Assembly (NCBI RefSeq): GCF_014281055.1
Contig: NZ_JACRSE010000006.1
Span: 124,001-188,000, forward strand
Reading direction: 5' to 3'
Source of the DNA: Fluviispira vulneris
GTDB lineage: Bacteria > Bdellovibrionota_B > Oligoflexia > Silvanigrellales > Silvanigrellaceae
Length of the DNA stretch: 64,000 bases
The notes below the pieces were generated by a model. The model made no database searches. It was not told the origin of the DNA and worked only from the letters and a program-made list of their open reading frames with translations. Every line of letters begins with the position of its first letter. Position 1 is the first letter of the stretch. This document shows positions 9,243-44,412 of the stretch, piece by piece. Position numbers and translations under genes: made by a program.

Positions 9243-9246
9243 TTGG

Positions 9247-9706: not shown

Positions 9707-9727
9707 TTACGAGAAAAACACAAGAGA
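9707..9727 (+). repeat. 21-bp direct repeat, copy 2
   Basis: An exact second copy of 9247-9267. It is enclosed by TCGCCACCA upstream and TGGTGGCGA downstream, which would display the repeat in a loop of roughly 35 nt in RNA. Confidence 0.5.
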
Positions 9728-10057
9728 TGGTGGCGATATTCTATTTTGCGAATGTGTTTTTAACGTTTCGATTACCAGTCGAAACACACACTCCAGCGCG
9801 CGTACATGACGGGCACTAAAACTACTATAGCTATACATAAATTTAAGTCAAGGGTTTACCAGCACGTATCGGTAAAATATTTTTACCGCAGGGTACTACC
9901 ATACATTTGTATATCACTAAAATCACTACCTAAAAATTTTTAAAATTACAAAAATAGGGTAGGAGGGTATACTACAATTAAAGTATCAATAGCTCTCTAA
10001 AATCTATAAATGCTCCCACTAGGCCAGCAAAAACCTGAAGAACAAAGGAGAAATCAA

Positions 10058-25306: not shown

Positions 25307-25319
25307 TTATAAATATCTC

Positions 25320-26678
25320 CTACCAAAATTTTAATTTTTTAATTCCACGCTCAATTTCCCTTCCAACTTTATTCGCGCCATTATATAGGGACTTATTCAT
25401 GGAATACATACCACCGGTTATGCCGTCTAGCAGTAAATTATTTCCTCCGCCGCCTCCGGTTTCGGCAGTATATTCTGGAGTATAGGCTTTAGCCGCTGCG
25501 GCTTTTGCTTGCTCTGCTCGTGCATTAATTAACGAATTTATTGCGTTACGGTAGTCACTCTCGCGAGCTGATACGTTAATTTCTGGCGCACTTTCTCTAG
25601 CGCGCTGTTGCATTCCAAGCAATGCGCCAATTTTATTAAATCGGCCGTCGAGAAACATATTTTCGTTATATGTTTGCATTGGCGAAACAAAATCGTTTTC
25701 GCGAACGTCATCTAACGTGAAATTTTTTAATGTATTTTCCAGCAATTTATTTTTTACATTTAGCGCCGCTTCTTGATTTGCTTTAATGTAATTATCGCCC
25801 GCGCCTTCCATGATTTTTTCAGCAAACATGTTTTTGTAATCTTGGCTTTTTTTCCACTCTGCGAGTTTTTGTAATTCTGCACTACGGCGTGCATTAAATT
25901 GCGCTTGTCTTTCGCTTGCGGCAGATTGCGCACTACGCATTAATTCATTTCGGAACATATCGCCGTCACTATATAATCGTTTTGAATTTTCGTCGACCGT
26001 GCGTTTACTGTTGTCTAACAACGATTTCTCGTTATTTAAAAGTTGCTCTTTTCCTGCTCTAAATCCGTCAATTTGTGTCAAATCGTTTCGAATTGCGCGA
26101 CCGGCTTGCCCCGAATTTCTGTACAATAGTGCGTCTAATCTACTACCGCCGCGTGTACTTCCGTTTTGATTTTGTAACTGATTTGTAAGGCCATCAATCG
26201 TCGATAAATTCGCTGTCGCTGACGTATCTGCATTGTAATATTTTGATTTAGATTCAATTGCCCCTAATGTATTTTTAGCAACATCTGGAGTTGCGAGAGT
26301 GCTTAAACGGTCGTAAACATCTTTTCTTTCGATGTTTTCAACATCCGAGCGACCGTTATAATTATAATTTTTTGCAATATCGCCAACGTTTCTGCTGTAT
26401 TCTTTGGTCGAATTTTGCAGCTGTGTGTTGGCGTCGTCGAGGCTCTGTTTTATTCCAGAGCTTAGCTGTCCCATGTTGGCGCCATAATTTGCATCGTAAA
26501 TCGCATTAGGATTTTTAAATGTACTTTCATGTGCGGCCGAAGCATTTTCTGGCGCATTTTTAACTCCAGTTTCGCCCGACGGCGTAGGTGTTTGGCCGAT
26601 TATTTGCCCTTGTGGCCTACGTAATGCTGGTTTTTGTTCGTCAATTAGATTAGAAATTTTTCTGAAAATGTAAGCCAT
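25320..26678 (-). CDS. Internal virion/structural protein (452 aa)
   Basis: A 452-aa helical protein, low in cysteine, with Asn/Gln-rich segments and a Gly-rich stretch (ETGGGGGNNLLLDG, about residue 410) before a basic tail (REIERGIKKLKFW). Directly after the portal gene with a one-base gap. Likely the first of four ejection or portal-associated proteins. Family not recognised. Confidence 0.55.
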   Translation of the reverse strand: MAYIFRKISNLIDEQKPALRRPQGQIIGQTPTPSGETGVKNAPENASAAHESTFKNPNAIYDANYGANMGQLSSGIKQSLDDANTQLQNSTKEYSRNVGDIAKNYNYNGRSDVENIERKDVYDRLSTLATPDVAKNTLGAIESKSKYYNADTSATANLSTIDGLTNQLQNQNGSTRGGSRLDALLYRNSGQAGRAIRNDLTQIDGFRAGKEQLLNNEKSLLDNSKRTVDENSKRLYSDGDMFRNELMRSAQSAASERQAQFNARRSAELQKLAEWKKSQDYKNMFAEKIMEGAGDNYIKANQEAALNVKNKLLENTLKNFTLDDVRENDFVSPMQTYNENMFLDGRFNKIGALLGMQQRARESAPEINVSARESDYRNAINSLINARAEQAKAAAAKAYTPEYTAETGGGGGNNLLLDGITGGMYSMNKSLYNGANKVGREIERGIKKLKFW

Positions 26679-26679
26679 A

Positions 26680-28584
26680 TTATAAACTCACTATAGGTTG
26701 GGCGGGAGAAGCGGGTTGCGCTGCTGAAGTGCTCCCGTCCGGCGGTTGAGAGGGAAGAGGTGGCGCTACGCTACCGCCGCCAGACTCGACAGCTCCGCCA
26801 AGTGATGGCGGCTGCTCAGGCAGAGGCGGCGGTTGCTGCTGTTGCTGCAGATGATTCTCATGTTCTGCAATGTGCTGTAATATTATCGCAACATGTTCGC
26901 TGCTGCGGCGGATTTCTGGGTTCCGTAGCAAATCTTTATGTTTCTCAATGTGCGCCTGATGGTCGTCAAATGTAAGCACTGGACAGTCAATACCCGCCAA
27001 TAAATCATCATTTTCTTTCTGTGCAAGTGCACTTTCGTTTAATTGACTGCTATAAAGTTGCTCTGGCGCTTGGCCTTCGAGTACTAAAAAATACTCGCCG
27101 AGATTTTTAACTAGGCCATGCTGCAGGGCTAATTCGGCGGTATCTCTTCTGCCGGAAATAGTATTCATAATAGGATTAACTATATCTAATTTTACCCTTT
27201 CAAAATCCGCCAATTCGCTAGATTTAAATTCTTTAACGTACGAAGTATTGCCGTCTGCTATAGAAACTATTTGTCTTTCAGCTCCAAACATGCGGTAAAA
27301 TTTTACTGATAGCGTAACAACTTCTTCAATTCCTACGTATAGGCACCTAGACAAACTTGACATAAATTCGACAGAATTTGCGCATAGTGTTGCGATTGCG
27401 TTTCCTGCAGTTACTCCCGTAGGCGGCTGTCCCCTTAGAGCGCTGTTAACGTTAGCAATAACGCTCATATGTTCGGTGTAAATACGAATGCTTTCGATAA
27501 CCTCGGGCGGTGTTTTAGTTAATTGTAGCGCTTCAGGTTTCCCGCCACCGTCTATATTTTGCGGCGTGTAATCTATGAACTGCATGCCTTCTACTTGCGC
27601 AATATCGATGTTACTTCCGCGGGGGTTTAAAATTGATTGCACGCCGAACGCTGCTTGATTTGTCGCCATTGTCGAAAAAGACACGTCGAGCATCTCTTGA
27701 GTCGCGGATAAGTTACAAAATAATGGATAGCCTCGAAGCTGGTCATTCATTTGCTCGGGTAGATTTTGAATAATCGGAATGCACTCGTACGGATTTTCAC
27801 CGTCATATAAAACACAACTTTCGCTGCAGAGAATTGCCATTCTTCCGCGGGGGACGGCCGGCGACGGTTTGTGATAATAATGATAAACTAAAATTGTGTC
27901 GTCATTTTCTGCAGAAACTTCTGTTACTTTAGTCCCGCTAAACCTATTAATTTTTAGCAATTCATCTCTGAGTTCTGGATGTAGTGCAATAAGGTCGTGG
28001 CGGTTATATTTTTCAGCGACCGCAGCCCATGGCAGGTCTTGCCAGTCATCATATTGTAAATCGTAAAAAACATAACTTGGATTTACTACGGATACCTTAA
28101 CATCTCCTGTCATTTTAGGTTCGCCGTCTTCGGAATGCACGAGCGTTCCGCCGTCCGAATACCATGTGCAGTGCCAAAAACTCTGGCCATAAATAAAAAT
28201 TTGTTCGGCCGCTCTATCCATTTTTACGTCAATTTTTTTATCGCGTACGAGTTTATTTGCGATAGCCTGCGCGATTTTACCGTTTGCGAAACTCGCGTAG
28301 TCAGTCGAGCGCATTATTGATTTGAAAAATAATTTCTGTTTGCAAATTATTGAAATAGTTTGCCTCACGAGGGAACGAGCTTGAGGCACGCTCATTTTAA
28401 TTAGCTCGCCTTGGCGACCCGCAAATCCTAAATTTTCTGACAAAGCATTTTTATAGTACAGTTCAATATTCCGCTTCCAAACCGAAGAAAAGCAGTCGTT
28501 AAATTGTCCGCTTGATTTTATTAATTGCATTATTTTAGCTGTAGCAGTTTTTGTATCTGCTGCGGCATAATATTGGTTATTCAT
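26680..28584 (-). CDS. Portal protein
   Basis: A 634-aa protein. Features of podovirus portals: an N-terminal region with VPQARSLVRQTISIICKQKLFFK, a middle AAEQIFIYGQSFWHCTWYSDGG, PSYVFYDLQYDDW (typical portal wing), and PPTGVTAGNAIATLCANSVEF. The C-terminus is a long Gln/Pro-rich low-complexity tail (QQQQPPPLPEQPP...). A copy of the conserved late promoter lies just upstream (28602-28644). It is unusual that the portal lies after the tail genes instead of next to terminase. Confidence 0.8.
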   Translation of the reverse strand: MNNQYYAAADTKTATAKIMQLIKSSGQFNDCFSSVWKRNIELYYKNALSENLGFAGRQGELIKMSVPQARSLVRQTISIICKQKLFFKSIMRSTDYASFANGKIAQAIANKLVRDKKIDVKMDRAAEQIFIYGQSFWHCTWYSDGGTLVHSEDGEPKMTGDVKVSVVNPSYVFYDLQYDDWQDLPWAAVAEKYNRHDLIALHPELRDELLKINRFSGTKVTEVSAENDDTILVYHYYHKPSPAVPRGRMAILCSESCVLYDGENPYECIPIIQNLPEQMNDQLRGYPLFCNLSATQEMLDVSFSTMATNQAAFGVQSILNPRGSNIDIAQVEGMQFIDYTPQNIDGGGKPEALQLTKTPPEVIESIRIYTEHMSVIANVNSALRGQPPTGVTAGNAIATLCANSVEFMSSLSRCLYVGIEEVVTLSVKFYRMFGAERQIVSIADGNTSYVKEFKSSELADFERVKLDIVNPIMNTISGRRDTAELALQHGLVKNLGEYFLVLEGQAPEQLYSSQLNESALAQKENDDLLAGIDCPVLTFDDHQAHIEKHKDLLRNPEIRRSSEHVAIILQHIAEHENHLQQQQQPPPLPEQPPSLGGAVESGGGSVAPPLPSQPPDGSTSAAQPASPAQPIVSL

Positions 28585-28601: not shown

Positions 28602-28644
28602 TAATTATAAGTGTTACAGATTCCGCTATTATTTTTTTGTTACT
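28602..28644 (-). promoter_or_regulatory. Conserved late promoter, portal operon copy
   Basis: On the minus strand: GTAAC, a run of seven A, TAAT, then TGTAACACTTATAATTA. It contains a perfect TATAAT. It matches the copy upstream of the scaffold gene (37550-37593) over about 43 bases, sharing GTAAC twice, the A-run and the TTATARTTA end. There is no good -35 hexamer, which suggests an activator binding the GTAAC repeats. Confidence 0.7.
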
Positions 28645-28652
28645 GTAGATTT

Positions 28653-31418
28653 TTATTTTGAAGTTCGGTTGGAAATGTTGCGAACAGCGAAGGCAAGCGA
28701 CTGTATGTTAATTTGTTCAGCCGCTTGGCTGTGCCTGAGTTTTACTTTCAACCATGTTGTCATCTGATTCTGCAAAGGTACGAAAACCCGCGTAGGTTCC
28801 GCCAAATACGTCTGATACTGTATATCGATGGTTTCGCCGAGACCCCACGTAAAAAAACCCCAAGGGCTGTTACCCCAGCCGCTTTGATTACCGCGGGCTT
28901 GCCATTCGCGATAGCTTGAGTCACTTGCATCCGAAATGAAAGCAAGCTCGAGCTTGCTGCAAGAGTTATTGCGGTAGCTAGCCTGAAACTCCGAAAATTG
29001 TTTTAGCACATTTTCGTCTAGCCCAATCGGGCTTGAAATAATCTCACTCGTGATACTTTTAAAATGCTCTGATTTATTGTCAATGTTTGCTTTGCGAGAG
29101 AAATGACACTCTGTCAATTTTTTTTGCGGTTTAACAGCAATGACACGGTTAATAACATCACCTGTAGCAATAATATCGCCCACCTCTATTTTTAGCTGGC
29201 TATTTATTAGCCAGCATTTGCATGTTGCATCGACGGGAGTTGCTGAAATTACGGGCGTGCTTTCGTCGCAAAAATCTGTTTTGTTATTATTGCGCCTCAT
29301 TTTAATTAATTTATTTTTATTATTTATTGCGTAATGCAGATTGTCTGTGGGGTTTACCACACCGCTGCGGTACAAAATCGAAGACGTTGTCCACACATTC
29401 GTTAAAACATTGTAAACATACGTAACAAAGCTACGGGCATTTGGCGTATATGTTGTTAGCATATACAGCCGTTCTGTTGGAACTGTAGTTGCAAAAGTCA
29501 CGGCCGAAAAATCAGGCTGCGAAAAAATTGCAGTGAGCAGCGGTTCAATATTGCGACTAACGATTGAAACTTCCGTTTCTGTTATCCGCACAATTCCTGC
29601 AAAAGTGCACGCATAAATGCTGCCGTCGAGTTCTACAACAGATTCGGGAGCGTTGCAAATTATTGTCAAATCAAGCGGAAATACGCTAAAATCCGCACGG
29701 CTTGAGCCGGATAATCTGAAAACGCCATCCTCTTTTAAAATAATTAAACTATTTTTTAAGGGAACGATACGCAATATTTTAGCTTGTTTTGCGCCAACAT
29801 TAATATACGACGTTAAAGGGAACGCTTCGATTTCTCCAAATTTGCTTATGTATACTCCATTTGGAATTGTGTCAGAAATACTATCAACGCTCTTATCTGT
29901 TGCCGCCACAGGCAAACTTGGATTAAAACATGCGGCAATTTTTTTCGTACTCGCTCGCAACGAAAATTTTACAGACGCAATGCGTGAATAAAAATACATT
30001 TTACCGGGCAATGACTGCGAAGAACTTACATAGCTTGCATAAATAGTGCCGTTTTTATCCCTATTAATTACGCGGCATATTGAGCGCGCAGTATTGTCAA
30101 TATTTACAGCAACAGAATTGCTAGATGTAAATATTTTAAATTTGCCGCCATCAGTCGTAGAATATTCGTCCGAATTTGCCGCAGTATACGTGCGTTTTAT
30201 ATTCCCAGTTTCTACAATAAAACTATCGCCCGAGAGCAAATCGCCGTTTGCTTTTATCAAATCAATTTCTGTCGAGTTTATAGTTGTAGGGCAAGTTAAA
30301 AACATGTGCTCCTTAAAAAATGCCACATCTTCGCAGACAGGCGGCGGCATGTTTGACTCTAGAATTCCTTGGCCAGTATTAGGGTTTGTATATAAAAAAC
30401 CAACACGGAAAAGGTCATTAATTTTATCAGTATACGTTATAAATCCACTTTCAATCTCTGGTTTTGTGATATTTTTCTCTATAACTAATTGTAGCGTTGA
30501 TTCGTCAGGCTCAACTTCGTTATTTATTGACGCATTTGTTCTGTAAATTCTGTAAAAATAATCAGTATAAAGACAATTTTTTGGGATTGTCGCTTGTAGT
30601 TTTGGCTCTGCTCTAAATCCAAATTTAACGGTAGTTACGCCAGTTGACGGCGTAGTTAACACGGCCGTCGTTGAGAAAGTAAATTCATTATTTGTGGCAT
30701 TAACGGCCGTGATTACATATTCGCCGTCAGGAATTGGCGTTACCCCATTCGAGTATTTCACAGTAACAAAATCGTCAATTTTTAACGCTTTTGGCAGTGG
30801 TTCTGTAGCTGTGATAGTTATTTCATGATTTTTTATTTTAATGCTTTTTGGCGACTGTAGCATATTGCCGCGTGTGACAATTTCTGAGGGTGCCCCCAAA
30901 ACTACCAATTGATTTGCGTCTTTTCTTCCAAAAACAATGCGATATCCTATTTGCGTGTCAGGGTTATGTATGCCTGAATTAGGCTCCGGCTCACTTCCGA
31001 TGTAATCAAGGTCTGGCGCTTTCTCAACACCCGCGAAAATTATATTCTCATTTATACTTTCAATTTTTAAAAGGCCTTTTTTTGAAGGTATATACAAATT
31101 CCCTGCCGCTTGACAATACCGTGATGTTTGAATATCAAGAGCAACTCTCGTTTTAATTTCAGAATTTTTTAAAAAACTGCCGTCGCTCGCTTGCTCAACT
31201 ACCGTTACGGACGTAGGTGAGAGCAATATTAAATTTTTTAAATAGCTTAAAACAGTATGGCTTCCATACATTAACCCGTCAATAAACGTTTGATAGCCAT
31301 TTCGCTTTTGAATAATATTGTCGCGTGAAATTAAAATATTTTCGGCTTTCTCGAGAAACCCCTCAGTCTCAAAACTATTATCTTGCAAATTTAACCCAAA
31401 AAATTTTGTTATCTGCAT
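28653..31418 (-). CDS. Tail nozzle / stabilization protein (P22 gp10 / T7 gp12 class)
   Basis: A 921-aa, beta-rich protein. The N-terminus FFGLNLQDNSFETEGFLEKAENILISRDNIIQKRNGYQTF has the GLN..D....L.EAxN...xx..i.kR.GYxxF pattern seen in podovirus tail tube nozzle/stabilization proteins. Length fits. Follows the head-tail connector with a one-base gap. It would form the tip of the short tail. Confidence 0.72.
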   Translation of the reverse strand: MQITKFFGLNLQDNSFETEGFLEKAENILISRDNIIQKRNGYQTFIDGLMYGSHTVLSYLKNLILLSPTSVTVVEQASDGSFLKNSEIKTRVALDIQTSRYCQAAGNLYIPSKKGLLKIESINENIIFAGVEKAPDLDYIGSEPEPNSGIHNPDTQIGYRIVFGRKDANQLVVLGAPSEIVTRGNMLQSPKSIKIKNHEITITATEPLPKALKIDDFVTVKYSNGVTPIPDGEYVITAVNATNNEFTFSTTAVLTTPSTGVTTVKFGFRAEPKLQATIPKNCLYTDYFYRIYRTNASINNEVEPDESTLQLVIEKNITKPEIESGFITYTDKINDLFRVGFLYTNPNTGQGILESNMPPPVCEDVAFFKEHMFLTCPTTINSTEIDLIKANGDLLSGDSFIVETGNIKRTYTAANSDEYSTTDGGKFKIFTSSNSVAVNIDNTARSICRVINRDKNGTIYASYVSSSQSLPGKMYFYSRIASVKFSLRASTKKIAACFNPSLPVAATDKSVDSISDTIPNGVYISKFGEIEAFPLTSYINVGAKQAKILRIVPLKNSLIILKEDGVFRLSGSSRADFSVFPLDLTIICNAPESVVELDGSIYACTFAGIVRITETEVSIVSRNIEPLLTAIFSQPDFSAVTFATTVPTERLYMLTTYTPNARSFVTYVYNVLTNVWTTSSILYRSGVVNPTDNLHYAINNKNKLIKMRRNNNKTDFCDESTPVISATPVDATCKCWLINSQLKIEVGDIIATGDVINRVIAVKPQKKLTECHFSRKANIDNKSEHFKSITSEIISSPIGLDENVLKQFSEFQASYRNNSCSKLELAFISDASDSSYREWQARGNQSGWGNSPWGFFTWGLGETIDIQYQTYLAEPTRVFVPLQNQMTTWLKVKLRHSQAAEQINIQSLAFAVRNISNRTSK

Positions 31419-31419: not shown

Positions 31420-32337
31420 CTATATTCTCAATGATTTATGTATTCTAGGTTTATTCAAAAGTCGGTTACCGTTCACATACGGCCGAGGTTTTCCCGAAAC
31501 TCGCGGCGATAAAACACCTTCCATGATGTTGCGAGCTCGGTCTAAATCGGGCTTAAATGCCGCGAGAGCTTGCAAATCTTTTTGCGCTTCTAAAATTTTA
31601 ACGCCCGCCGCTTTGATTAAATACTTGTAACACTCATCGGGCAAAAGTAAAACATCTGTTTGCCCCGCTAGCGAAACTCTGTCGCCTGCTTGCAAATTTT
31701 TTGGCAATAACTCTGGCTTAAATTGCATTTTATTGCCGTCAATTCTCGCGACTGCAATATCTATTGCCAGTATGTGCGGTTTGCATCTCGCATTTGCTGC
31801 AATAAAATCGTACATACTGCGGCCGGAAAAACTTTTGTTTGCGTTTGTTGCTAGCGTAATTTCGCCGGTGCTGTAGTCTACATTAGAAACTACGGCAACA
31901 TTAATGTTTGATACGAGCCGCGAATGTTTAATAAAATAACTAAATGTTAATTCGCCGCAATTCGCTGTAGGCGTAGGAACGAGCGCAATATCGTCGCCCA
32001 CAAAATAATATTGCGACGGTCTGCCTTTGTTATGCTCGCTATCTGCGTTAGAAAATTCTATATTTTCGAGTTCTCTATTTTCGTGCCACACTGTTTTAAT
32101 ATTAGAGCCAATTGCTCTATACGGAACAGGGTATAGTTTTCTATTATTTTCAAGAAATACATTACTATTAAATAGCAGCCTGTCGCTGTGCAGGCGCAGA
32201 ATCATCGGCACGATGGTGGATTCTATTTCTTCGTCAACCATCGCTAAAATATCATCGTCGCTAAAGCGGAAGTCTGTTGAAAATATTGTATTATTGCGTT
32301 TGATAGATGTTAAAATATCACTCGATGTATATGCCAT
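31420..32337 (-). CDS. Head-tail connector / tail adaptor (P22 gp4-like)
   Basis: 305 aa. FSDDDILAMVDEEIESTIVPMILRLHSDRLL and PVPYRAIGSNIKTVWHENRELENI with a VPTPTANCGELTFSYFIKHSRL strand resemble gp4/gp11-type adaptors that bind below the portal. Directly precedes the nozzle gene. Assignment is by pattern and context. Confidence 0.65.
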   Translation of the reverse strand: MAYTSSDILTSIKRNNTIFSTDFRFSDDDILAMVDEEIESTIVPMILRLHSDRLLFNSNVFLENNRKLYPVPYRAIGSNIKTVWHENRELENIEFSNADSEHNKGRPSQYYFVGDDIALVPTPTANCGELTFSYFIKHSRLVSNINVAVVSNVDYSTGEITLATNANKSFSGRSMYDFIAANARCKPHILAIDIAVARIDGNKMQFKPELLPKNLQAGDRVSLAGQTDVLLLPDECYKYLIKAAGVKILEAQKDLQALAAFKPDLDRARNIMEGVLSPRVSGKPRPYVNGNRLLNKPRIHKSLRI

Positions 32338-32618
32338 TATATTTTGATTTTCTTATTTTTTGGTTCGGCTGCAATGGAAATCACCGACAATTTTGCTGCT
32401 TTCGGCTTTGCTTTGCGTTCGTTTTCAGACTGTAGCCACTCGTTAAATTTGCTTTTAAGATTTTCTTTCGGCGCTTCAGTTTCTTCTGCGGATTCGGCCG
32501 TATTTTCGGCCGCTTCTTTCAATTCCTCCGAAACTTTTGCAGTTTTTTCGCCGTGTCCTTCGGCCATTTTTTTATGTAATTGCTCAATTAACGTTTCCAA
32601 AATTTTTGCGATAGTCAT
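32337..32618 (-). CDS. Charged helical phage protein (93 aa)
   Basis: 93 aa, highly charged (Lys/Glu/Ala-rich), no recognised domain. It shares its stop base region with the start of the connector gene. Possibly an assembly or chaperone protein. Confidence 0.5.
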   Translation of the reverse strand: MTIAKILETLIEQLHKKMAEGHGEKTAKVSEELKEAAENTAESAEETEAPKENLKSKFNEWLQSENERKAKPKAAKLSVISIAAEPKNKKIKI

Positions 32619-32633
32619 TTTAGTTTTTCCCTG

Positions 32634-34112
32634 TTATTTATTTTTTTTGATGCTTAAATTGTAAGATAAGTTTATATAAAATTTATTTATAAATCCTTTT
32701 TTTTGCGAGAGTTCGCTAATAATTGTAGACTGCATGGGTATAGAGCTGCTTGTAATCAGTAACCCTACGTCACTTAAATACATTGACGTTAATTGCGGAG
32801 GGGTTTTTGTTACGAACATCAACCGTTGGCTTATTTCGCCAAAGCTATGTACGCTATACTCAAGTGTTGCATTAGGAAGCCAAGTTTTTGTAAAATCCCA
32901 ACTAGTTACTAGATTCATACCCGCTGCGGGATTTGCATACAATTCCATATCCTGCAGCCATGGGACATTTAATCGCAATGTTGCGGGAGCTGTTGTAGCT
33001 ATATCGTGCGTTAGAATGCTGTAAACACACCCTGACACAGTAATAGCATTACAACACTGAGATACAGCAAGCATTGAAATATGGAAAACATATTTGCCTG
33101 CAGTCAATATTGATTCGATAGCAACGTTCGGCCGATACTCATAAATTCCATTGCACGAAACAATATAATTTCCATTAACGTTCGTAAGTACAATCGAACC
33201 TTTTCCGAACAAAATAGCATCGGGAAACTCGCGCGCTTCGCCAAAAAATACCCTCGTAATTGCTGTTGTGTTTATCGGCCGTAATATTATGGATTCGCCG
33301 TTTCGCAAGCTCGCGGCCGCGGGAACTATAACGCCGCCGGCTGCAGTCATGTTAAGTGTATCAACAATAATCTCACGTGCATCTTTATTTATAGTATTTA
33401 TGTGCACGGGAGTTACAGTATCTCGTATAGTTAATACAGGACAAATAATTGAAATACCACTCGCGAACGATTTAACACCGCCAAATATTTGGGAGCTTGC
33501 CGTAATTATTCCCGCATTATTTTCGCCCGCGTCTATTAATTTCTCACTTACCGTTTTTGAAATTTTTTCATTTATTGTTTTAAATTCTTTTGTTACAAAC
33601 TCGCCAAAATCACTGCCGTTAATTTTAATATTATTTTTTGTCGCATCTATCGTTTTATTTGTAAGTTCGTCTTTGCTGTTCTTGCTAAACGCTACAGCAT
33701 AAAAATTGGAAATAACTCGCCAATCTCCACGATTATACAGCAATCCGATTTTTTGATTATCGCCACTTAAAATGTACTCTGTCGCGCTTTCAATTGTTGC
33801 ACCCGTTGCTGTTATTTTTATCGGCAGATTGCTAGCATTCCCGCTCTCATCCGCGATAATAAATGTTGAGCCTTCGTCGACTGCCGGTAAAACTACCGAC
33901 GACGGTTTGCTGCAATTAATTCCGATGTAATAATCATTTTGCGAAAGTGTTGTTGTCTCGTCCGTAGAAGTTCTCGCTGCGTATTTTTGGCCGTTAGTTG
34001 TTTGCGCGTTGTCAGCTAAATCCGCTAAAAAATCTGTTAATGACGGCCAGCCGTCGTCGCCAGCTTCTGGGATTGAATATTGATTGTTATTCCAATTTTT
34101 AATTAATGCCAC
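32634..34112 (-). CDS. Tail fibre protein
   Basis: 492 aa. The N-terminus NWNNNQYSIPEAGDDGWPSLTDFL matches the start of many podovirus/cyanophage tail fibres (W.G..Y.IP..GD..W..LT.FL). Then DYYIGINCSKPSSVVLPA and GSTFIIADESGNAS, a repetitive beta region, and a variable C-terminus likely to bind the host. It lies between capsid/holin and connector genes, an unusual place. Confidence 0.72.
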   Translation of the reverse strand: MALIKNWNNNQYSIPEAGDDGWPSLTDFLADLADNAQTTNGQKYAARTSTDETTTLSQNDYYIGINCSKPSSVVLPAVDEGSTFIIADESGNASNLPIKITATGATIESATEYILSGDNQKIGLLYNRGDWRVISNFYAVAFSKNSKDELTNKTIDATKNNIKINGSDFGEFVTKEFKTINEKISKTVSEKLIDAGENNAGIITASSQIFGGVKSFASGISIICPVLTIRDTVTPVHINTINKDAREIIVDTLNMTAAGGVIVPAAASLRNGESIILRPINTTAITRVFFGEAREFPDAILFGKGSIVLTNVNGNYIVSCNGIYEYRPNVAIESILTAGKYVFHISMLAVSQCCNAITVSGCVYSILTHDIATTAPATLRLNVPWLQDMELYANPAAGMNLVTSWDFTKTWLPNATLEYSVHSFGEISQRLMFVTKTPPQLTSMYLSDVGLLITSSSIPMQSTIISELSQKKGFINKFYINLSYNLSIKKNK

Positions 34113-34341
34113 GATTGTTCCTTAGATTTAATTTTCGTATGATACTTTCGTTTTTTACTTTCGCGGGCACTTTAGCTTTTTCGCCGACTTCTATCGCTAC
34201 TACTGCATCGGCGGCAACTAAAAATACCGAGGATTTTCCGAGGCGAAAATCTAAAAATTTATTTTTGAAAATATACTTGTCTGCCTCGATTTCCTTAATT
34301 TCTGAATTGCAGCCATTAAAATATTCAACATAGTATTTCAT
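34099..34341 (-). CDS. Small phage protein, unknown (80 aa)
   Basis: 80 aa; a Lys/Glu/Val-rich protein with a beta-rich middle (SSVFLVAADAVVAIEVGEKAK). It overlaps both neighbours (4 and 14 bases) and so is likely translated in sequence with the holin and tail fibre. Confidence 0.5.
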   Translation of the reverse strand: MKYYVEYFNGCNSEIKEIEADKYIFKNKFLDFRLGKSSVFLVAADAVVAIEVGEKAKVPAKVKNESIIRKLNLRNNRGIN

Positions 34342-34721
34342 TTTTGCACGCCTTTAATTTTCTCGTACGTTCTTAACCCACTTATTCCGAGTAATCCACA
34401 TAATACCGTCATAACTTCTTCAAAATCGAGCGACGGCAGCACTGTCAGAGGCTTCCCAAGCGCTTCTAAAATTATTAACAAGAGCGGCTGAATTAAAAAA
34501 TTGTACGCGAATATTATTGCACACACCCAGCCAACAGCCGGACGCCAGCCGGCCACGAAAATTGATTGATGTTTTGCTTCTACCGCATTGACATCTAGCT
34601 GTCGAAATGCGCCCTCTTGCTCTAGCCGCATGAGTTCGATTTTCGCTTTATTTGCGTCGTCGGGGTTTGGGAATATTTTGTCAAAAATTCCAGTCAACAG
34701 CGGTATTAATGCCGGCCACAT
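34338..34721 (-). CDS. 3-TM phage holin
   Basis: 127 aa with the pattern of the GTA/phage 3TM holin family: amphipathic start (ALIPLLTGIFDKIFPNPDDANKAKIE), then SIFVAGWRPAVGWVCAIIFA, a second segment FLIQPLLLIILEAL and a third at VMTVLCGLLGISGL. It should form the lysis pores that release the GH108 endolysin, which is encoded more than 20 kb away in the early arm. Confidence 0.8.
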   Translation of the reverse strand: MWPALIPLLTGIFDKIFPNPDDANKAKIELMRLEQEGAFRQLDVNAVEAKHQSIFVAGWRPAVGWVCAIIFAYNFLIQPLLLIILEALGKPLTVLPSLDFEEVMTVLCGLLGISGLRTYEKIKGVQK

Positions 34722-34787: not shown

Positions 34788-36143
34788 TTAAGCTGCAGGG
34801 GCTTCGTCGTTAATGTTTTTAATTAATACCTGCTTTGCGGGAGCTCTGCACATAATATACATATCTGCGTATGTGTGAAATGCGTATGCACCTTGTCCGT
34901 CTAGCTGATAAAATAGTTTTTCGTCCGACATGCCTTCTATGGAAGTTGCAACATCTTGCGTACCGCTGCAAATCCAATCATCGAGTCTCAAAATAATTGC
35001 ATCGCCTTCCATCACATATCTATGTCCGACAATTTCAATTTCACCTTCGCTATACGCGAATTTAATCGATTTCGCTCCATTCTTTAATTCAGAACTATTG
35101 TAGGAAGAATCGAAACTTCTGTTAGCTAGCCCATCTGCCATGAGCGCATGAAACGAGCGCGGGTTAGCGTAACAGCGTAGGGTTCCGTACGTCCCACCTG
35201 CATTTACTGCATCCGCTGTGCCCATTTCTATTGTTTTAAATGACAGCGATTTTCCGCCGCAATCAAACACATTCGCAGACCAGAGTGGGAATAGCTGAGC
35301 ATCAATATTAAACTGCTTGCCTTTATTTTGAAGTATTGCTTTAACGCCAATCATTTCTTGGGATAATTCCATGCCCTCAAAAGCTAAAACATGCGAGCCA
35401 ATTTTAGTTGCGGCTGTCGGTTTAAAATCGACTTTTAAAATTCCGAGCGATGTATCGCACGAAATATATCGGCCTTCAGCTACAACTTCTCTATTTGGCT
35501 GTTGCAATTGTTTAACCTTAATTCCTTGCATTCCAACCCATATTCCAGAGGCCATGTCGCCTGCTTGTAATAAAATATAATTACCGCTTGCGTTACTGCA
35601 AACTCCGTTTGTAAACGACAGTTCGCCATAGAGGGAGCTTGTGAGTTTACCCGTACCGTTAGCAAATTTTTGTTTGCGATACTCGCCTGTAGTATATGCA
35701 ACTCTTCCTAATAATACGTCGGAGTTTTGTCCGTGTATTTTTACAATCTCGAGAAAACGACGGTGTGAAATTAAATTATTTTTAACAACGTGTTTAGTTG
35801 CTTCTACAAACGCCGTTTCGCTGCTAGCACTTCTGCCGATAGTTGCCCATGGCACGATTGAACGTAATACGGAAATAGACGGCGTAACCTCGGATTGTTT
35901 AATAGCGCCCGCGACCGCAGGGTTAATATTAAATACGTCGTCGCCCGTGCCGGCAAATGTGATTCCCACCTCGCTGCCTAGAGTGATAGATTCAACGTAT
36001 TTATTACCTGCTTTCTCCTTCGTAGAGAAAGGAATATCTTTTGTGATATGCAAATCATCTGTTGGGATTAAGCTTGTATTTAGTTTACCGTAGTGTGTTT
36101 TAAAAAGCTCAAGATTTGAGCTATTCGAAATTTGTCCTGCCAT
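34788..36143 (-). CDS. Major capsid protein
   Basis: 451 aa, following scaffold and a small head protein. Sequence features fit the P22 coat/N4 gp56-like major capsid group: N-terminal NLELFKTHYGK, DIPFSTKEKAGNKYVESITLGSEVGITFAG, and a central WVGMQGIKVKQL domain. C-terminus GEIEIVGHRYVMEGDAIILRL. Position, length and composition support capsid. No other candidate exists in the late arm. Confidence 0.75.
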   Translation of the reverse strand: MAGQISNSSNLELFKTHYGKLNTSLIPTDDLHITKDIPFSTKEKAGNKYVESITLGSEVGITFAGTGDDVFNINPAVAGAIKQSEVTPSISVLRSIVPWATIGRSASSETAFVEATKHVVKNNLISHRRFLEIVKIHGQNSDVLLGRVAYTTGEYRKQKFANGTGKLTSSLYGELSFTNGVCSNASGNYILLQAGDMASGIWVGMQGIKVKQLQQPNREVVAEGRYISCDTSLGILKVDFKPTAATKIGSHVLAFEGMELSQEMIGVKAILQNKGKQFNIDAQLFPLWSANVFDCGGKSLSFKTIEMGTADAVNAGGTYGTLRCYANPRSFHALMADGLANRSFDSSYNSSELKNGAKSIKFAYSEGEIEIVGHRYVMEGDAIILRLDDWICSGTQDVATSIEGMSDEKLFYQLDGQGAYAFHTYADMYIMCRAPAKQVLIKNINDEAPAA

Positions 36144-36682: not shown

Positions 36683-37504
36683 TTACTTTGATAAAAATTC
36701 TTGTAGGCTTTGTGTTAGTTTGCTTTGAGGTGCTGCCGCAGTTGCCGGATTTGCACGAACGCTTGGAACTCGTGCGCCGCTTTTCTTGCTTAAATATGCC
36801 TCAGCTATTTTGTCGAGATACTGTTGTGGCAGTAAATCAAGAATTGCGTCAGGGCTCGCGTTTGTGTATGATTCTAATCTGCGCCCGAATGATTTTTTAG
36901 CCCGCTTTAAAGCTTCGGGAGCCTTAATGCTCGTTTGTGAATGTTTGTATTCCGCAAGCATCTGCTCTGCTAAATCTGCTACCATTTCAATTGTAGGTTT
37001 TGTAATTCCAGCACTTCTGAAACATTCCTCAATTTGGGTATCTATTTCTTCAACGATACGTTGCTCTTCTAGCTCTGCTCTTTTTTGCTCCTCCACTTTT
37101 TTACTGTTTGTTATTTCAGACTCGATAGAGTCCTTCCATTTTTTTAACTCTCGTAACTCTCGCTGTTCTGGGGTGAGTTCTGCCTCTGCCGCTTCACTTT
37201 CGAGGTGTTCTAAAAGCTTAGATTGATAAAAATCACGCGGGTTGTGCCCGAGTTCTCTTAAAAGTAATTCTGGATTTTCTGAAATTGCTGACAGAAATTC
37301 GTGCGCTTTTGCTTTGTAGCTGCCGTACTCGTTTGCTACATTTTTATGGCTTTTGTACGCGGCAATTAAATCATCTTCAGAAATTTCGGCATCGTCGATT
37401 TTAAACGTGCGCCTTTCTGCTGCCGCGGCGGGCGCAGACTCCGAAGTTTCTGGGCTGGCCGTAGTTGTGGAAATTCCTGCGGCAGTTGTGTCAATCTCTG
37501 ACAT
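36683..37504 (-). CDS. Capsid scaffolding protein
   Basis: 273 aa, highly charged and helical. An Ala/Ser/Pro-rich start is followed by RTFKIDDAEISEDDLIAAYKSH, a central coiled coil (EAELTPEQRELRELKKWKDS...), and a C-terminal KLTQSLQEFLSK helix. This composition and its place directly before the capsid genes are typical of podovirus scaffolds. First gene of the structural operon, downstream of the conserved late promoter. Confidence 0.75.
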   Translation of the reverse strand: MSEIDTTAAGISTTTASPETSESAPAAAAERRTFKIDDAEISEDDLIAAYKSHKNVANEYGSYKAKAHEFLSAISENPELLLRELGHNPRDFYQSKLLEHLESEAAEAELTPEQRELRELKKWKDSIESEITNSKKVEEQKRAELEEQRIVEEIDTQIEECFRSAGITKPTIEMVADLAEQMLAEYKHSQTSIKAPEALKRAKKSFGRRLESYTNASPDAILDLLPQQYLDKIAEAYLSKKSGARVPSVRANPATAAAPQSKLTQSLQEFLSK

Positions 37505-37549
37505 TAAATAAATGCCCTCCTTAGTTTTTTCGTGTGTGTTAGTTTCTCT

Positions 37550-37593
37550 AACTATAAGTGTTACAATTTCTGAAATTATTTTTTTTGTTACTT
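37550..37593 (-). promoter_or_regulatory. Conserved late promoter, scaffold operon copy
   Basis: Minus strand: GTAAC, eight A, TAATTTCAGAAATT, then GTAACACTTATAGTTA, with TATAGT as -10. Matches the portal-operon copy (28602-28644). It lies back to back with the rightward promoter at 37612-37640, so a regulator here could control both directions. Confidence 0.7.
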
Positions 37594-37611
37594 AAATATT
37601 TTTTCTGCAGC

Positions 37612-37640
37612 TTGAAATGTTCTTATTTTTGTGGTATATT
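37612..37640 (+). promoter_or_regulatory. Rightward promoter giving a probably leaderless transcript
   Basis: TTGAAA (37612-37617), exactly 17 bases, then TATATT (37635-37640). Transcription would begin about 7 bases later, at or next to the ATG at 37647, leaving no leader. Lambda cI from PRM is the classic leaderless repressor transcript. Confidence 0.6.
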
Positions 37641-37646
37641 ATCCGG

Positions 37647-38099
37647 ATGGAAATTGAAAAATCTAAAATAAATTTACAATATGTTGGGGTGGTGTGGAGT
37701 GGCGGATTGCTGCGGCGAGATGGTACAAAAATTAAAGCCGCAGCTGTTCGCAAATTATTGCTAAAATTAAATCCAACGCTCACAGAGCGAGAACTCTCAA
37801 AAATTATTTACAATTGCCCGTCGCTAAATCCAAATTTTGTGCCCGACGCGAAAATGATGGCGACGGCGATTAAACTAAAAAAAATGGAGGCGCGCGAAAA
37901 AAAACTTGAAAATGAACGGCGAAAACGTTTAAAAATTAAAAAAATAATGAAAGAAGCGAAACCAGACGATTTTAATTTACTAAATTATTTACGCATGCCG
38001 ATGTCTCACTGCATTGCAGCAATACGCTCGAGACACGATTGCTTGAGCGAAACTTCTGCAAAAATGTTAGTCGGGCGTTGGGTGCGAGAAGGGCTTTAA
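37647..38099 (+). CDS. Candidate lysogeny regulator (150 aa), leaderless
   Basis: I place the start at ATG 37647, at the predicted transcript start; an upstream in-frame ATG (37617) lies inside the promoter. The 150-aa product is very basic (KLKKMEAREKKLENERRKRL) and ends in a possible helix-turn-helix (MSHCIAAIRSRHDCLSETSA). It is read opposite to the surrounding late genes and faces the late promoter. Those facts suggest a repressor or late-gene regulator. No known repressor family is recognised. Stop overlaps the next ATG (TAATG). Confidence 0.55.
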   Translation: MEIEKSKINLQYVGVVWSGGLLRRDGTKIKAAAVRKLLLKLNPTLTERELSKIIYNCPSLNPNFVPDAKMMATAIKLKKMEAREKKLENERRKRLKIKKIMKEAKPDDFNLLNYLRMPMSHCIAAIRSRHDCLSETSAKMLVGRWVREGL

Positions 38100-38464
38100 T
38101 GAAAATACATGCAAATAGTGTTGTCGTGCTGCAGAGTACCAGAATAGAAAATCAACTCGTGAATTTCACGGTCGAACTACCACCAAACACTTACAATATT
38201 GAAACTTTAGCGGACGGCGATAAGCTCACAATATGTGCAGCACACTTCAAAACATACCAGTGTGTCTTTACTACGTACGTTAAAAAGCTTGGCGAACGTG
38301 TATTGCTGTCAAACTGGTCGGCCTCAGTTACTTTAAAAAAGCAGAACGCACGTATGCGGAAGCAATTGCAGTGTGAAAAAACTTTAGTTCAGCTCGTGAC
38401 TGACACTTTGAACGGTCTCGGCGGGGTTCTTCTGAATTTCTCTACAAAGTACTCGCCGAGCTGA
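38099..38464 (+). CDS. Rightward phage protein, unknown (121 aa)
   Basis: Starts at the ATG sharing one base with the preceding stop. The frame listed from 38039 upstream would overlap the first gene. 121 aa, beta-rich first half, basic second half (LKKQNARMRKQLQCEK). Co-transcribed with the candidate regulator. It ends 7 bases before the terL stop on the other strand. Confidence 0.5.
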   Translation: MKIHANSVVVLQSTRIENQLVNFTVELPPNTYNIETLADGDKLTICAAHFKTYQCVFTTYVKKLGERVLLSNWSASVTLKKQNARMRKQLQCEKTLVQLVTDTLNGLGGVLLNFSTKYSPS

Positions 38465-38471
38465 GCTGACG

Positions 38472-39872
38472 TTAACTTGCTTTCCTTGCCGCAAACGGAT
38501 TTAGTTTTGCGGCTATTTTTTTTAGTTGGCTGTCGTTACGTTGGCTATTGCCGCTAATTTGAAAGCCGCTTCCGTACTCATTAAAATATTTTGATTTTGG
38601 CACCATTTGTTCCACTCGCCAGCCATAAACTGCGCACATAATTGCGTCAGCGTGTCCATATGCCGCAGTTCTTAAAAAATCCGTGCGTGACACATTAAAC
38701 GTGCAGTTTAGCAGTGATTTTATAGTAAACTCACAGTTAGAGAGTACGAAAATATCTTTACGGAAAAATGCGGCATTTAATGCTGAAATTGCGCTGTCCC
38801 TGTCCTGCTTTGGCGGGCACGGGGCGGAAATATTACAGAGTGAAAGTAAATCCACTCGTGTCTGGCCGTGTGCATCCACCCAAATATGGTTCTTATTTAC
38901 TTCGTGCTCTTTAGATAACTCTAATATATTTTTTCCGATAATCATCACATCAGTATTTTCGTCAAGCACGCGTTCGTCAATTATAACACATTTATTATCG
39001 TTAACAGTGCGGCCGAACACATGCAACACACACTTATCTCGTATTCCGCCCGTATCTGCGACTATCCATTTCACAAAATCGAAACTTGGCCGCGTGCTGT
39101 AGTTTATTACATTCTCTAAATCAAATTTTGGAATAATTAAGCCGCCTTTATCTCTGACATTCCTGCACATGTATTCACGTAGAAAATCGGGCGAGTCTTC
39201 ACCGCCGCACTCGCTAATAATCGCGGTAATATCCTCGGGCGTAAGTGCAGGGTTATCGTAAACCGTATAGCGCTTTAGTTTCCCTTGTAGCTCGTGTTCT
39301 TCGCATTTTATATTAAACGGATGGTCTGGTAATTTCGCGGGCGTAGATATAAAAATTAAAACGCCCTTTGGTTTTCCGCCAAACGTTGGCAACAACATCG
39401 GACTTAATACGGATTTTATAATATAGTTGTATTCGTCTGCCCTAGTAAATCCTGCTTCGTCAACTAAAATTGCTATAGCTCCACGGCCGCGCAGAGCTTC
39501 CGAGATAGTGTCAAACCCCGCAAATACTAGTTCGGAACTTCCGACAACCCATTTATTTACGCTTTTAGTTTCACGCATGAAACCTCTTGGAGCGTCTGCA
39601 CTAATTGATTTTAATATCGGCGTATAGATTTCTTTAGCTTGGTCTTTTGAAGGTGCTAGCAAAATTACTTTTGAATTTTTAAATTTTATTGCCAGCTCAC
39701 ATGCGTATACTGCGCTTAAAAAAGATTTTCCAAATCGTCTGGCTGCGAGTATGACAATTTCCTCGCCCGCTTTAGCGCTACGCATTTGGTTGTAAATTTC
39801 TTTTTGGTTGCCGTGCAATTTGTATGACAATTCACCAGAAAGCCAGAGCGATTCCGTCAGTTTGTCTGACAT
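38472..39872 (-). CDS. terL: Terminase large subunit
   Basis: 466 aa. ATPase domain: Walker A AARRFGKS (residues 43-50), Walker B AILVDEAG (Asp138, Glu139), coupling motif FISTPA (174-179). RNase-H-fold nuclease: Asp273 in VADTGG, Asp333 in WVDAHGQ, Asp409 in GHADAIM. Packages phage DNA into proheads through the portal. Overlaps the upstream small gene by 16 bases. Confidence 0.92.
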   Translation of the reverse strand: MSDKLTESLWLSGELSYKLHGNQKEIYNQMRSAKAGEEIVILAARRFGKSFLSAVYACELAIKFKNSKVILLAPSKDQAKEIYTPILKSISADAPRGFMRETKSVNKWVVGSSELVFAGFDTISEALRGRGAIAILVDEAGFTRADEYNYIIKSVLSPMLLPTFGGKPKGVLIFISTPAKLPDHPFNIKCEEHELQGKLKRYTVYDNPALTPEDITAIISECGGEDSPDFLREYMCRNVRDKGGLIIPKFDLENVINYSTRPSFDFVKWIVADTGGIRDKCVLHVFGRTVNDNKCVIIDERVLDENTDVMIIGKNILELSKEHEVNKNHIWVDAHGQTRVDLLSLCNISAPCPPKQDRDSAISALNAAFFRKDIFVLSNCEFTIKSLLNCTFNVSRTDFLRTAAYGHADAIMCAVYGWRVEQMVPKSKYFNEYGSGFQISGNSQRNDSQLKKIAAKLNPFAARKAS

Positions 39873-41718: not shown

Positions 41719-42417
41719 ATGGCAGCAGATAGTGAGAAAAATAACGAGGAAAATAAAAATGATTTGAGTTTATACTTTCAGGCAATAAAGCGAGCTGAGC
41801 ACATATACGACACTATTACAAATATTCGTGAACTTTCGTTCGGTGCTGCTATTGCTCTAGTGGTTATTGGGTCAATAAAGGATTTTCTAGTTAACTCAAA
41901 TGACAACAGTGCACTGCTTTCTTCTATTCTGATTGTTAAAGATTTTAACCATATTCTAATACACGATTTAAAAATTTCTTTTATACTTGTTTTCTGCGGA
42001 ATGTCTGCCTTACTTGTTTTGTTTACAAAAGAGATAGAATTTAAAGTTTACCGCCCTCGGCTGCACGGAGTTCTTAATTATTTAATTGAGTTTGAAAAGA
42101 AGGCTAGCGAAAAAGAAGTTAGCTTAGGGTTTAAGGAAAATTCTGGGCTAATAAAATTAGAAAAGGATTATGCCAAAGTAGATACAGATAAAAATATTGC
42201 GAAATTATATTATTGGTTTATTGGAGTAAGCTTAGGGCTAGGTATTATTGGGGGGTATTTAATAAATATAGACGCCTGCAGAGTAAAGAGTAATTTTAAT
42301 AAATACTCAGACACACACATTCAATGTTCTCTAATCAAAGAGGAATTTAAAAACTCTGAGTCAAACCCTGTCTCAAAATTTGTAGAAACGACAAAATGTG
42401 AATGTGTTCCAGATTAA
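41719..42417 (+). CDS. Multi-pass membrane protein, probable moron (232 aa)
   Basis: AAGGAGTG precedes the ATG. Three membrane segments at about residues 40-58, 88-106 and 165-187. A cytoplasmic helical part lies between the last two, and the C-terminal domain has four Cys (ACRV, IQCSL, TKCECV). It is rightward next to a leftward operon, with AT-rich composition unlike the neighbours. That is typical of a cargo gene (moron) such as a superinfection-exclusion protein. Family not recognised. Confidence 0.6.
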   Translation: MAADSEKNNEENKNDLSLYFQAIKRAEHIYDTITNIRELSFGAAIALVVIGSIKDFLVNSNDNSALLSSILIVKDFNHILIHDLKISFILVFCGMSALLVLFTKEIEFKVYRPRLHGVLNYLIEFEKKASEKEVSLGFKENSGLIKLEKDYAKVDTDKNIAKLYYWFIGVSLGLGIIGGYLINIDACRVKSNFNKYSDTHIQCSLIKEEFKNSESNPVSKFVETTKCECVPD

Positions 42418-42435: not shown

Positions 42436-42664
42436 GTCCGGCGGATGAGTAAAAAAACTCAACCCTTCTTTTGTTCTAAAATTGAGAAAACGATAAAAAC
42501 AGTGTTTTGCAAACTCTTATCTCTCTCCTATATTTTATTATTATTAATTAATAATATTTTATACTCTAAAGTATACTATAGTAACTGCAGAGCGCTTCAA
42601 ATAGCTGTTATAAATTATAGCAACTTTAATTTTAGGGTTGGGTATTCCCACTCAACCGCCAGAC
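42436..42664. repeat. Right copy of the ~225-bp element (inverted relative to the left copy)
   Basis: Opens GTCCGGCGGATGAGT, closes CTCAACCGCCAGAC. The 31-bp ends match as inverted repeats at 24 of 31 positions. The core is the reverse complement of the left copy (8727-8950) with some changes. Its promoter-like pair (TTGAAG, 19 bases, TATACT) points leftwards into the end of the moron gene. Its position just inside the integrase region, mirrored at the other end, argues for a function. Confidence 0.7.
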
Positions 42665-43348
42665 GGAAGCACGCGCCCGCCACACTGCCGTCTTTCTTCC
42701 GTACCGCTTGCCGTACCTTGGCAGAGAAACCCGCCGCATAAGGGCGTTATATTGCCATTCTCGGCCATTTTCTAACGTACTCTAGCAGAACTTTAGCGAA
42801 ATTGTAGTGCGAGAATAAACCGCCGCAATCTCATGCACTTGACGTTCACCACCGCACTGGCTGCAAAATTTTCGGCTCCTGTAATTACAGCTACTTGCGC
42901 TGTTATAGTTTCGCCCGCACACGAACATGTGGGCTTAAATGCTGATTGTAGCGTGCGCCGGAGTCCCGCGAAACCGTTTTGGGGTTACCGCCACCCGCCA
43001 AGGTAACACTACAGCCCGCCTCCGCATGCGACAGAATGCAGTAGTTACGAGGGTTTCTGAAACTCACTTATGATAACTGTGATTATGATGTGTGAGATTC
43101 GGCGATTTTGGGGTGTGGGAGCGTGCGGGAATTGCTGCGGTTTGTGGCGGAATCGGGCATGGTATTGCGGCCAGATGCCTCCCTTTCGCACATGTTTGCG
43201 CGCTCTCAACCACCATAACACGCCCGCAGAAACGACGGAATAACGGAAGTTTGCCACCGAGGGCGGCATGTGACTTGCGTACGCTTGCGGTAATTGCTAC
43301 GATTTGTTGCCGTCTGTCGCCACTTTAAAAAAAATGGAGACAGATATT
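42665..43348. other. Noncoding region between the right element and integrase
   Basis: 684 bases, GC-richer than the host, with short inverted repeats and scattered CCGCC/GCGG words. Open frames here have no ribosome-binding site and no family pattern. Likely holds the integrase promoter, arm-type recombination sites and possibly a small regulatory RNA. The last bases before the ATG include AATGGAGA, which serves as the integrase ribosome-binding site. Confidence 0.45.
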
Positions 43349-44305
43349 ATGGATTTATTTTGTGATTATGTAACGGAGTGGATTGGAAGTTTAAACGAGA
43401 GGTATTCGGCTCAGACGATACGAAGTTATTCGAGAATAGCACGGAAGCACTTTAAACATTTTGCAGAAATGCAACTAGAAAATGTGAGTCCCGCACTACT
43501 CCTCAAATATCTGGTTATCAAAGCAACGCAGGATAAGCGTAAGTTTAAAACGACAAAAAACATTCTGTCAACGTTTTCGGCTTACTGTGATTTTTTACTT
43601 TGTCGAGGGCTGATAGAGAAGAATCCGTGTGTAGACGAAACTCTACTTTCGAGACTGCGGGCGCATTACAGAACCGCAAGGGACAAAGTACAAAAGCGAA
43701 TGTACGCGCTGAGTGTCCCACACGCTGTCCTATTACTGCAGCGAGCATACTGTAAAGGTTACCAGTTCGGCCTTGCTACTGAAACGTTGCTGTGTACTGG
43801 GCTTCGACTTGGTGAGCTTGCGGGGCTTGAGATAAACGATGTGTCACTTACGCACATTGTAGTCTGTAGAGCTTTTGACCCTGAAGGCAAGCAAATGCAG
43901 ATGTCGGCGAAATGGGGCAGCAATGGCAGCGTACCCATTCCCGCACACCTCGGCGAAAAGCTGGAGCTTTTTTTTAAAAGCAGAAAGCGCGCCGGAGACG
44001 AAAGTACTTGTGCATTCCCATATGTGCGAGCCCGTGCTGATGTATTTTCTAAACGTATTGGTAAAATATCAGACGACTTAGGATTGCCGCACACTACCGC
44101 ACACGTACTCAGGAGAACCGCGTTAACTTGGCTTGTCGCTGAAGGCATTCCTCTCGCTGTGGTTCAGGCTGTCGCAAGACACAGTACTTCGGCGATGACG
44201 GAAAAGTACATAGATAAAAGGCAAGTGGATTCGACGGGAGCAACCGAAGCGATTGCGCGACGGCTAGGTAGTGACCGACGGCTCACGGCGGTGGGTGGCG
44301 ACTGA
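43349..44305 (+). CDS. int: Tyrosine recombinase (phage integrase)
   Basis: I choose ATG 43349 because GGAG is 9 nt upstream; a longer frame from 43304 lacks one. About 318 aa. N-terminal SAM-like domain (ERYSAQTIRSYSRIARKHFKHF). Catalytic domain: Arg in CTGLRLGELAGL, HVLRRT (His/Arg), ARHSTSAMTEKYID (His and nucleophile Tyr). It reads towards attR, 73 bases away. Recombines attP with the tRNA-Ser 3' end. No excisionase gene was identified. Confidence 0.93.
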   Translation: MDLFCDYVTEWIGSLNERYSAQTIRSYSRIARKHFKHFAEMQLENVSPALLLKYLVIKATQDKRKFKTTKNILSTFSAYCDFLLCRGLIEKNPCVDETLLSRLRAHYRTARDKVQKRMYALSVPHAVLLLQRAYCKGYQFGLATETLLCTGLRLGELAGLEINDVSLTHIVVCRAFDPEGKQMQMSAKWGSNGSVPIPAHLGEKLELFFKSRKRAGDESTCAFPYVRARADVFSKRIGKISDDLGLPHTTAHVLRRTALTWLVAEGIPLAVVQAVARHSTSAMTEKYIDKRQVDSTGATEAIARRLGSDRRLTAVGGD

Positions 44306-44377: not shown

Positions 44378-44412
44378 TTTAAAATGGCGGAGAGCGGGGG
44401 ATTCGAACCCCC
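44378..44412. repeat. attR (35-bp core) within tRNA-Ser
   Basis: Perfect match to attL (8487-8521). It covers the CCA end, acceptor stem and T arm of the intact tRNA gene, so integration keeps the tRNA functional: the prophage supplies the 3' end. Confidence 0.95.

Follow-up and report, generated by a model that had tools for sequence, protein, structure and literature searches.

A leaderless-type two-gene operon among the late genes of a Fluviispira prophage and a candidate antisense RNA at its early leader

Gene content of the prophage and the ORF1–ORF2 cassette

The window, by which we mean the whole 64,000-nt stretch of Fluviispira vulneris DNA that was analysed, contains a podovirus-like prophage (8487–44412). 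It is bounded by identical 35-bp direct repeats (8487–8521 and 44378–44412) corresponding to the 3′ end of tRNA-Ser. Early genes are read rightward from ~10.2 kb and late genes leftward. The prophage carries genes for a family-A DNA polymerase (11605–13593), a DUF5906 helicase-like protein (19846–21366), a portal protein (PHROG 156; 26680–28584), a holin (34338–34721) and an integrase (43304–44305). The terL gene (38472–39872) and a scaffold-like gene (36683–37504) lie on the minus strand, and the capsid gene occupies 34788–36143. The scaffold and capsid names were assigned by gene order, the capsid family match being weak (E 0.12).

Several further elements were observed near the prophage ends. 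Long imperfect inverted repeats (8747–8914 and 42477–42643; 87 nt at 85% and 50 nt at 88%) lie close to both ends and are possibly integrase arm sites; related sequence occurs at 37789–37866 of CP017838.1, the Silvanigrella aquatica phage described below, together with inverted copies. Near the integrase, a 232-aa ORF (41719–42417) of low GC content (0.326) shows hydrophobic stretches by eye. It has no family, is missing from CP017838.1 and is a possible second moron. Just outside the left attachment site, an abiF RNA (Rfam RF03085; 8355–8391, minus strand) adjoins a 296-aa ORF (7388–8278, minus strand), which may be an AbiF-type defence gene.

Two genes on the plus strand occupy the gap between the scaffold-like gene and terL. 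ORF1 (37647–38099) encodes 150 amino acids with a pI of 10.1, and ORF2 (38099–38464) encodes 121 amino acids with a pI of 9.4, its start overlapping the ORF1 stop codon (TAATG). Downstream, inside the 3′ end of terL, alignment and folding revealed a plus-strand terminator-like hairpin with a T tract (38488–38523) in both phages. Its stem carries a compensated C/G-to-G/C swap between the window and CP017838.1; the hairpin was not among the sites returned by the consensus terminator scanner. The first-pass annotation had described ORF1 as a basic 150-aa protein read against the neighbouring late genes, which holds on both counts; ORF2 and the hairpin are additions to it. The GC contents of ORF1 (0.395) and ORF2 (0.429) lie within the range of the late-gene neighbours (0.39–0.44), and that of ORF2 in CP017838.1 is 0.296.

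Neither protein belongs to a family in Pfam, PHROGs, NCBIfam or PADLOC, and neither matches PDB sequences. Single-sequence AlphaFold2 prediction gave a mean pLDDT of 67 for ORF1, with block means of 67–92 from residue 71 onward. The model has a long basic helix (68–103) and two predicted C-terminal helices (119–129 and 135–147), in a part of the protein that is strongly conserved between the window and CP017838.1. The C-terminus may resemble helix-turn-helix (HTH) or L7/L12 helices. Structure prediction had been proposed as a check for a DNA-binding domain, and its outcome is divided: the C-terminal helix pair is there, but the model (pLDDT 67) returned no fold match with an E value below 1.9 in two structure libraries. 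A DNA-binding role for ORF1 is plausible on this model. The ORF2 model was unusable (pLDDT 44).

A tblastn search with TerL against 50,697 phage records matched 10 of them. The only close relative was CP017838.1, at 77%, the nine others lying below 29%. CP017838.1 is described as partial, with runs of N; the record is without annotation, and a repeated stretch (~22520–25505 and 31582–34567) and the N gaps are possibly assembly artefacts. It contains homologues of ORF1 (29456–29920; 69.5–71% identity) and ORF2 (29925–30347; 33–36% identity) in the same position and on the same strand as in the window. For ORF1, pN was 0.21 and pS 0.68 between the two phages, which shows it to be a protein-coding gene under purifying selection. 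ORF2 has diverged faster (pN 0.48) than ORF1, TerL, scaffold and capsid (0.14–0.28).

The search with the capsid gave five loci from six stretches, and five IMG/VR contigs are distant relatives of the prophage (39–52% identity for the capsid, about 31% for terL). ORF1 and ORF2 were missing from all five (tblastn, E below 0.5), and their terL–scaffold gaps hold same-strand genes, with no leaderless ORF on the opposite strand. Since the two close phages carry the cassette and all five distant ones lack it, it is specific to the closer pair; its presence in 2/2 close phages also means that it may belong to the core genome instead of being dispensable cargo. No close relative of ORF1 was found among 22 candidate stretches in viral contigs and 98 in genome contigs, nor by an alignment-based search (0/600 and 0/343, respectively), and plasmids yielded none. 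Among 96 genomes, ORF1 matched its own and, weakly, one other (G025, E 6.6e-5). The latter was rejected, as the stretch concerned (L004) has no matching ORF and the match was lost with a two-sequence profile. The ORF2 profile matched only its own genome among 58. For terL, relatives were found in none of four stretches in viral contigs and in one of 58 genomes, again its own.

The predicted ORF1 promoter and the adjoining putative late promoter

A sigma-70-type promoter with an extended −10 element precedes ORF1 on the plus strand (37612–37640). It consists of a −35 box TTGAAA (37612–37617), a 17-nt spacer and a −10 box TATATT (37635–37640) preceded by TG, and after a further 6 nt comes the ORF1 ATG at 37647, where the transcript is predicted to start. 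Promoter-like sites are common in this AT-rich DNA (6 observed against a shuffle mean of 4.9), which makes the promoter by itself weak evidence. Since such sites are no rarer than expected by chance, we tested its placement instead, scoring every ATG-initiated ORF of at least 60 aa for a sigma-70 promoter ending 4–8 nt before the ATG. With a score of 11, ORF1 ranked first among 207 ATG-ORFs of the prophage; a single ORF came next with 10. The ORF1 homologue in CP017838.1 also scores 11 and is the sole ORF to reach at least 10 among 185. None of 207 host ORFs of at least 150 aa, taken from 15 sampled 20-kb stretches, reached 10 (maximum 8), a comparison that is approximate given the longer length cut-off and the use of the first ATG only in the host set. 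A Shine-Dalgarno-like motif precedes 100 of these 207 host ORFs.

The promoter in CP017838.1 reads TTGATT-17-TATAAT-6-ATG, so that both the 17-nt spacing and the 6-nt gap are those of the window, and in both phages the sequence geometry fits a leaderless transcript. The earlier proposal that TTGAAA-17-TATATT places the transcription start at the ATG is a prediction compatible with this geometry, with the top rank among 207 ORFs and with the spacing kept in the second phage.

ORF1 also stands back to back with a putative late promoter, as the first-pass annotation had noted. The motif, GTAACACTTATAGTTA, lies on the minus strand at 37551–37566 with a −10 box TATAGT, and the scaffold/capsid transcript is predicted to start near 37544. 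Its 12-mer core GTAACACTTATA (37553–37564) has one further exact copy in the window, which precedes the portal gene (28607–28618), and occurs exactly twice in CP017838.1 as well, at the equivalent places upstream of the scaffold and portal genes. The core is exact at all four sites and overlaps the −10 box (TATAGT/TATAAT). The predicted starts of ORF1 and the late transcript are ~103 bp apart in the window and ~80 bp apart in CP017838.1, and the best-conserved element beside ORF1 is a late, not an early, promoter motif. Both late promoters of the window lie within a 62-nt imperfect repeat (28602–28663 and 37549–37610; motif GTAACACTTATARTTA). As no clear −35 box is visible by eye in these 62-nt repeats, transcription of the late genes may depend on a phage-encoded activator.

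The early control region and a candidate antisense RNA

A CI-like repressor gene is expected to adjoin and diverge from the early operon, and its promoter to have operators in common with the early ones. Here the early operon begins at about 9.2–10.2 kb, and ORF1 lies at 37.6 kb beside the late promoter. No operator-like sequence common to the ORF1 promoter region and the early control region was found, the best shared words being no better than those of shuffled sequences in either phage. ORF1 thus has neither property, and we therefore examined the early control region itself.

This region (9214–9851) corresponds to 38190–38853 of CP017838.1. Read by eye, an early-leader promoter TTGACA-15-TATAAA (9214–9240, plus strand; TTGACA-15-TATACA in CP017838.1) would give rise to an early leader RNA (9247–9510, plus strand). 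The predicted leader begins with one copy of a 21-nt direct repeat (9247–9267, predicted +1 to +21), after which the sequence is non-coding and conserved. This stretch (9262–9500, ~240 nt) is 73–76% identical to 38242–38484 of CP017838.1, includes the block GTATACTCCCGCAAGGAGATGTGA and has no Rfam match. The second, exact copy of the repeat (9707–9727) lies inside a predicted RNA gene on the opposite strand. This candidate antisense RNA (9616–9817, minus strand) has its own predicted promoter TTGACT-16-TATAGT (9851–9824, minus strand), kept in CP017838.1 with TATGGT as its −10 box, and folds into hairpins, the last of which is a terminator stem (9653–9621). One of the hairpins carries the complement of the repeat (9727–9707). 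The same set of hairpins, ending in the terminator, is predicted in both phages, and the consensus of these two sequences has 31 pairs, 8 of them changed on both sides and none broken. The strand was assigned by the promoter and the T tracts, with the qualification that the CP017838.1 terminator stem also has a plus-strand T run by eye. The antisense RNA has no Rfam match either.

CP017838.1 carries a counterpart repeat of 20 nt at the matching places (38210–38229 and 38716–38735). Between the phages the repeat has changed at ~8 of 22 positions (by eye), while the two copies are identical within each phage. Such concerted change of leader and antisense sequence is what base-pairing immunity predicts. 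Calculated duplex energies were −30.8 and −30.3 kcal/mol for the cognate pairs and −10.3 and −9.5 kcal/mol for the non-cognate pairs, a gap that follows directly from the repeats being exact. The leader/antisense pair, known from two sequences and their predicted promoters, makes the antisense RNA the more probable main regulator of the early genes, acting by pairing with the 5′ end of the leader. Instead of RNA pairing, a protein binding to the two repeat copies may account for the repeats, and the pair may also be a type I toxin-antitoxin or a copy-control RNA.

A same-strand partner for the repeat in the manner of phage P4 (9753–9766, 12/14 complementary) was rejected: no counterpart of it was seen in CP017838.1, and it was not among the best duplexes listed. 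The opposite-strand partner takes its place. Searches for the leader/antisense RNA returned one phage record (CP017838.1), no plasmids and, among 58 genomes, only its own; a 24-nt exact pattern gave no hits in viral contigs. Two RNA-model matches in host DNA (stretch L018, E 0.006 and 0.6) were discarded, the better one lying mostly within a 369-aa ORF (2216–3325) situated in AT-rich DNA.

The nearest known design is that of the P4 CI RNA. According to PMC4825925, this RNA pairs with seqA and seqC, two complementary sites in the leader of the replication operon. The P4 RNA arises by processing of an untranslated primary transcript in which the target sites lie as well. The locus at 9.2–9.85 kb is alike in that an antisense RNA would pair with the early leader: judged on sequence, it is complementary to two early-leader sites, here two direct repeats. 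It differs in that the RNA is not predicted to be processed from the leader transcript but to form a separate gene, with a predicted promoter and terminator on the opposite strand in both phages.

A proposed role for ORF1–ORF2 in the prophage

Overall, the antisense RNA at 9616–9817 is the better-supported switch candidate. The primary switch of this phage is probably based on RNA, and ORF1–ORF2 appears to be an accessory or regulatory operon expressed in lysogeny. The account we favour, to which we give about an even chance, is that ORF1–ORF2 is a self-contained leaderless operon with an accessory or maintenance function in lysogeny and is not the primary repressor, early control probably falling to the antisense RNA. 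It builds on directly observed features of the cassette, namely its two conserved genes, their orientation against the neighbouring genes, the spacing of the promoter and the terminator-like hairpin behind them. The cassette would have been inserted between terL and the scaffold gene, and host sigma-70 polymerase would transcribe it constitutively in the lysogen, with no need for an activator from the phage. It would be switched off during late growth, since leftward terL transcription runs antisense to it and the late promoter diverging from it reaches into its upstream region. With transcription in the lysogen and shut-off in late growth, its products would act mainly in the dormant state, for example in superinfection exclusion or, in the case of the basic ORF1 protein, by keeping leaky late genes silent. 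The antisense RNA, for its part, would base-pair with the first nucleotides of the early leader.

The cassette has parallels among prophage accessory loci, of which HK97 gp15 is one example; immI and sieA of P22 are likewise located among late genes. In PMC7067206, a Salmonella prophage locus that runs antisense to the lytic genes from a promoter of its own is described as typical of morons. ORF1–ORF2 resembles such morons (e.g. Salmonella STMMW_20121; PMC7067206) in its own promoter, its antisense orientation to lytic genes and its self-contained position in the late region. It differs in that it comprises two ORFan genes, has a leaderless-type start and occurs in each of the two close phages. 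Read in this way, it is a lineage-specific, self-contained operon of moron-like anatomy, with a sigma-70 promoter whose spacing is kept in CP017838.1 and a predicted intrinsic terminator whose stem is compensated there. Its base composition is not atypical, a moron feature that is not obligatory. The sieA and immI genes of P22 are described in part of PMC10883804 as prophage-expressed functions besides the c2 repressor; ORF1–ORF2 differs from that region in having no sequence or family match.

The first-pass annotation had read the locus as a lysogeny switch, with ORF1 as a repressor of a new family and, in the form considered here, ORF2 as its partner or anti-repressor. We consider this unlikely. 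The leaderless start speaks for it, since leaderless mRNAs are documented, in passages of PMC4488713, for lambda cI and for cI and cro of PY54, whose promoters let transcription start at the AUG itself, as is predicted for ORF1. ORF1 is basic with a predicted C-terminal HTH-like helix pair, and apart from the integrase no other unit beyond the early block is both conserved in the two phages and directed away from the late genes. The related claim that no CI-like or Cro-like gene exists elsewhere stands in a narrower form: an HMM scan of most ORFs found no recognised repressor. What survives of the switch proposal is a unit of leaderless type that has a promoter of its own, runs against the late genes and is kept in a second phage. 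ORF1 matches no HTH family and, unlike lambda cI and the PY54 genes, has no early promoter beside it, its divergent partner being a late promoter. Neither a shared operator nor adjacency links it to the early genes, and it is conserved like a structural gene, yet the early-leader repeat differs as described above. The RNA locus is a competing switch candidate.

A different regulatory role, which we regard as rather improbable, would have ORF1, expressed in lysogeny, silence the two late promoters by binding TAACACTTATAGTTA across their −10 boxes. The invariant core at these boxes, the divergence of ORF1 from one of the two promoters and the inverted arms TAAC/GTTA at three of the four sites (by eye) are consistent with it, but the motif may be no more than the core of a late promoter that depends on an activator, and the dyad is weak and the binding putative. 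We give little credence to the view that ORF1–ORF2 is an early pair driven by host polymerase, for counter-defence or host takeover during entry rather than for lysogeny. A host-type promoter requires no phage factor, and the fast evolution of ORF2 is as for arms-race genes, but no known family is represented and none of the elements that would limit expression to entry was seen. Similarly small is the probability we assign to a combined scheme without a classical repressor, in which an antisense loop coevolving with the first 20–21 nt of the leader would operate alongside a leaderless ORF1 of an unrecognised DNA-binding family that silences the two late promoters via a 15-bp element. Translation from an upstream start under an unseen promoter, the leaderless look being a T-rich accident, is highly improbable: in both phages the reading frame does extend further upstream (an in-frame ATG at 37617, giving 160 aa, in the window; 29390/29402 in CP017838.1, where the ORF is extendable to a GTG at 29390), but these starts are not at equivalent places, lack a Shine-Dalgarno sequence by eye and, in the window, overlap the −35 box, and the promoter spacing and 6-nt gap are identical in both phages.

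The prophage belongs to a lineage with almost unstudied phages, its known relative coming from Silvanigrella, on which a literature search returned no title concerning Silvanigrella phages. If expressed in the lysogen, ORF1–ORF2 would offer a clean and testable example of a prophage cassette driven by leaderless translation. The coevolving antisense RNA and leader would add a new layout to RNA-based phage immunity and, if the pairing is true, their coevolution would amount to heteroimmunity by base pairing.
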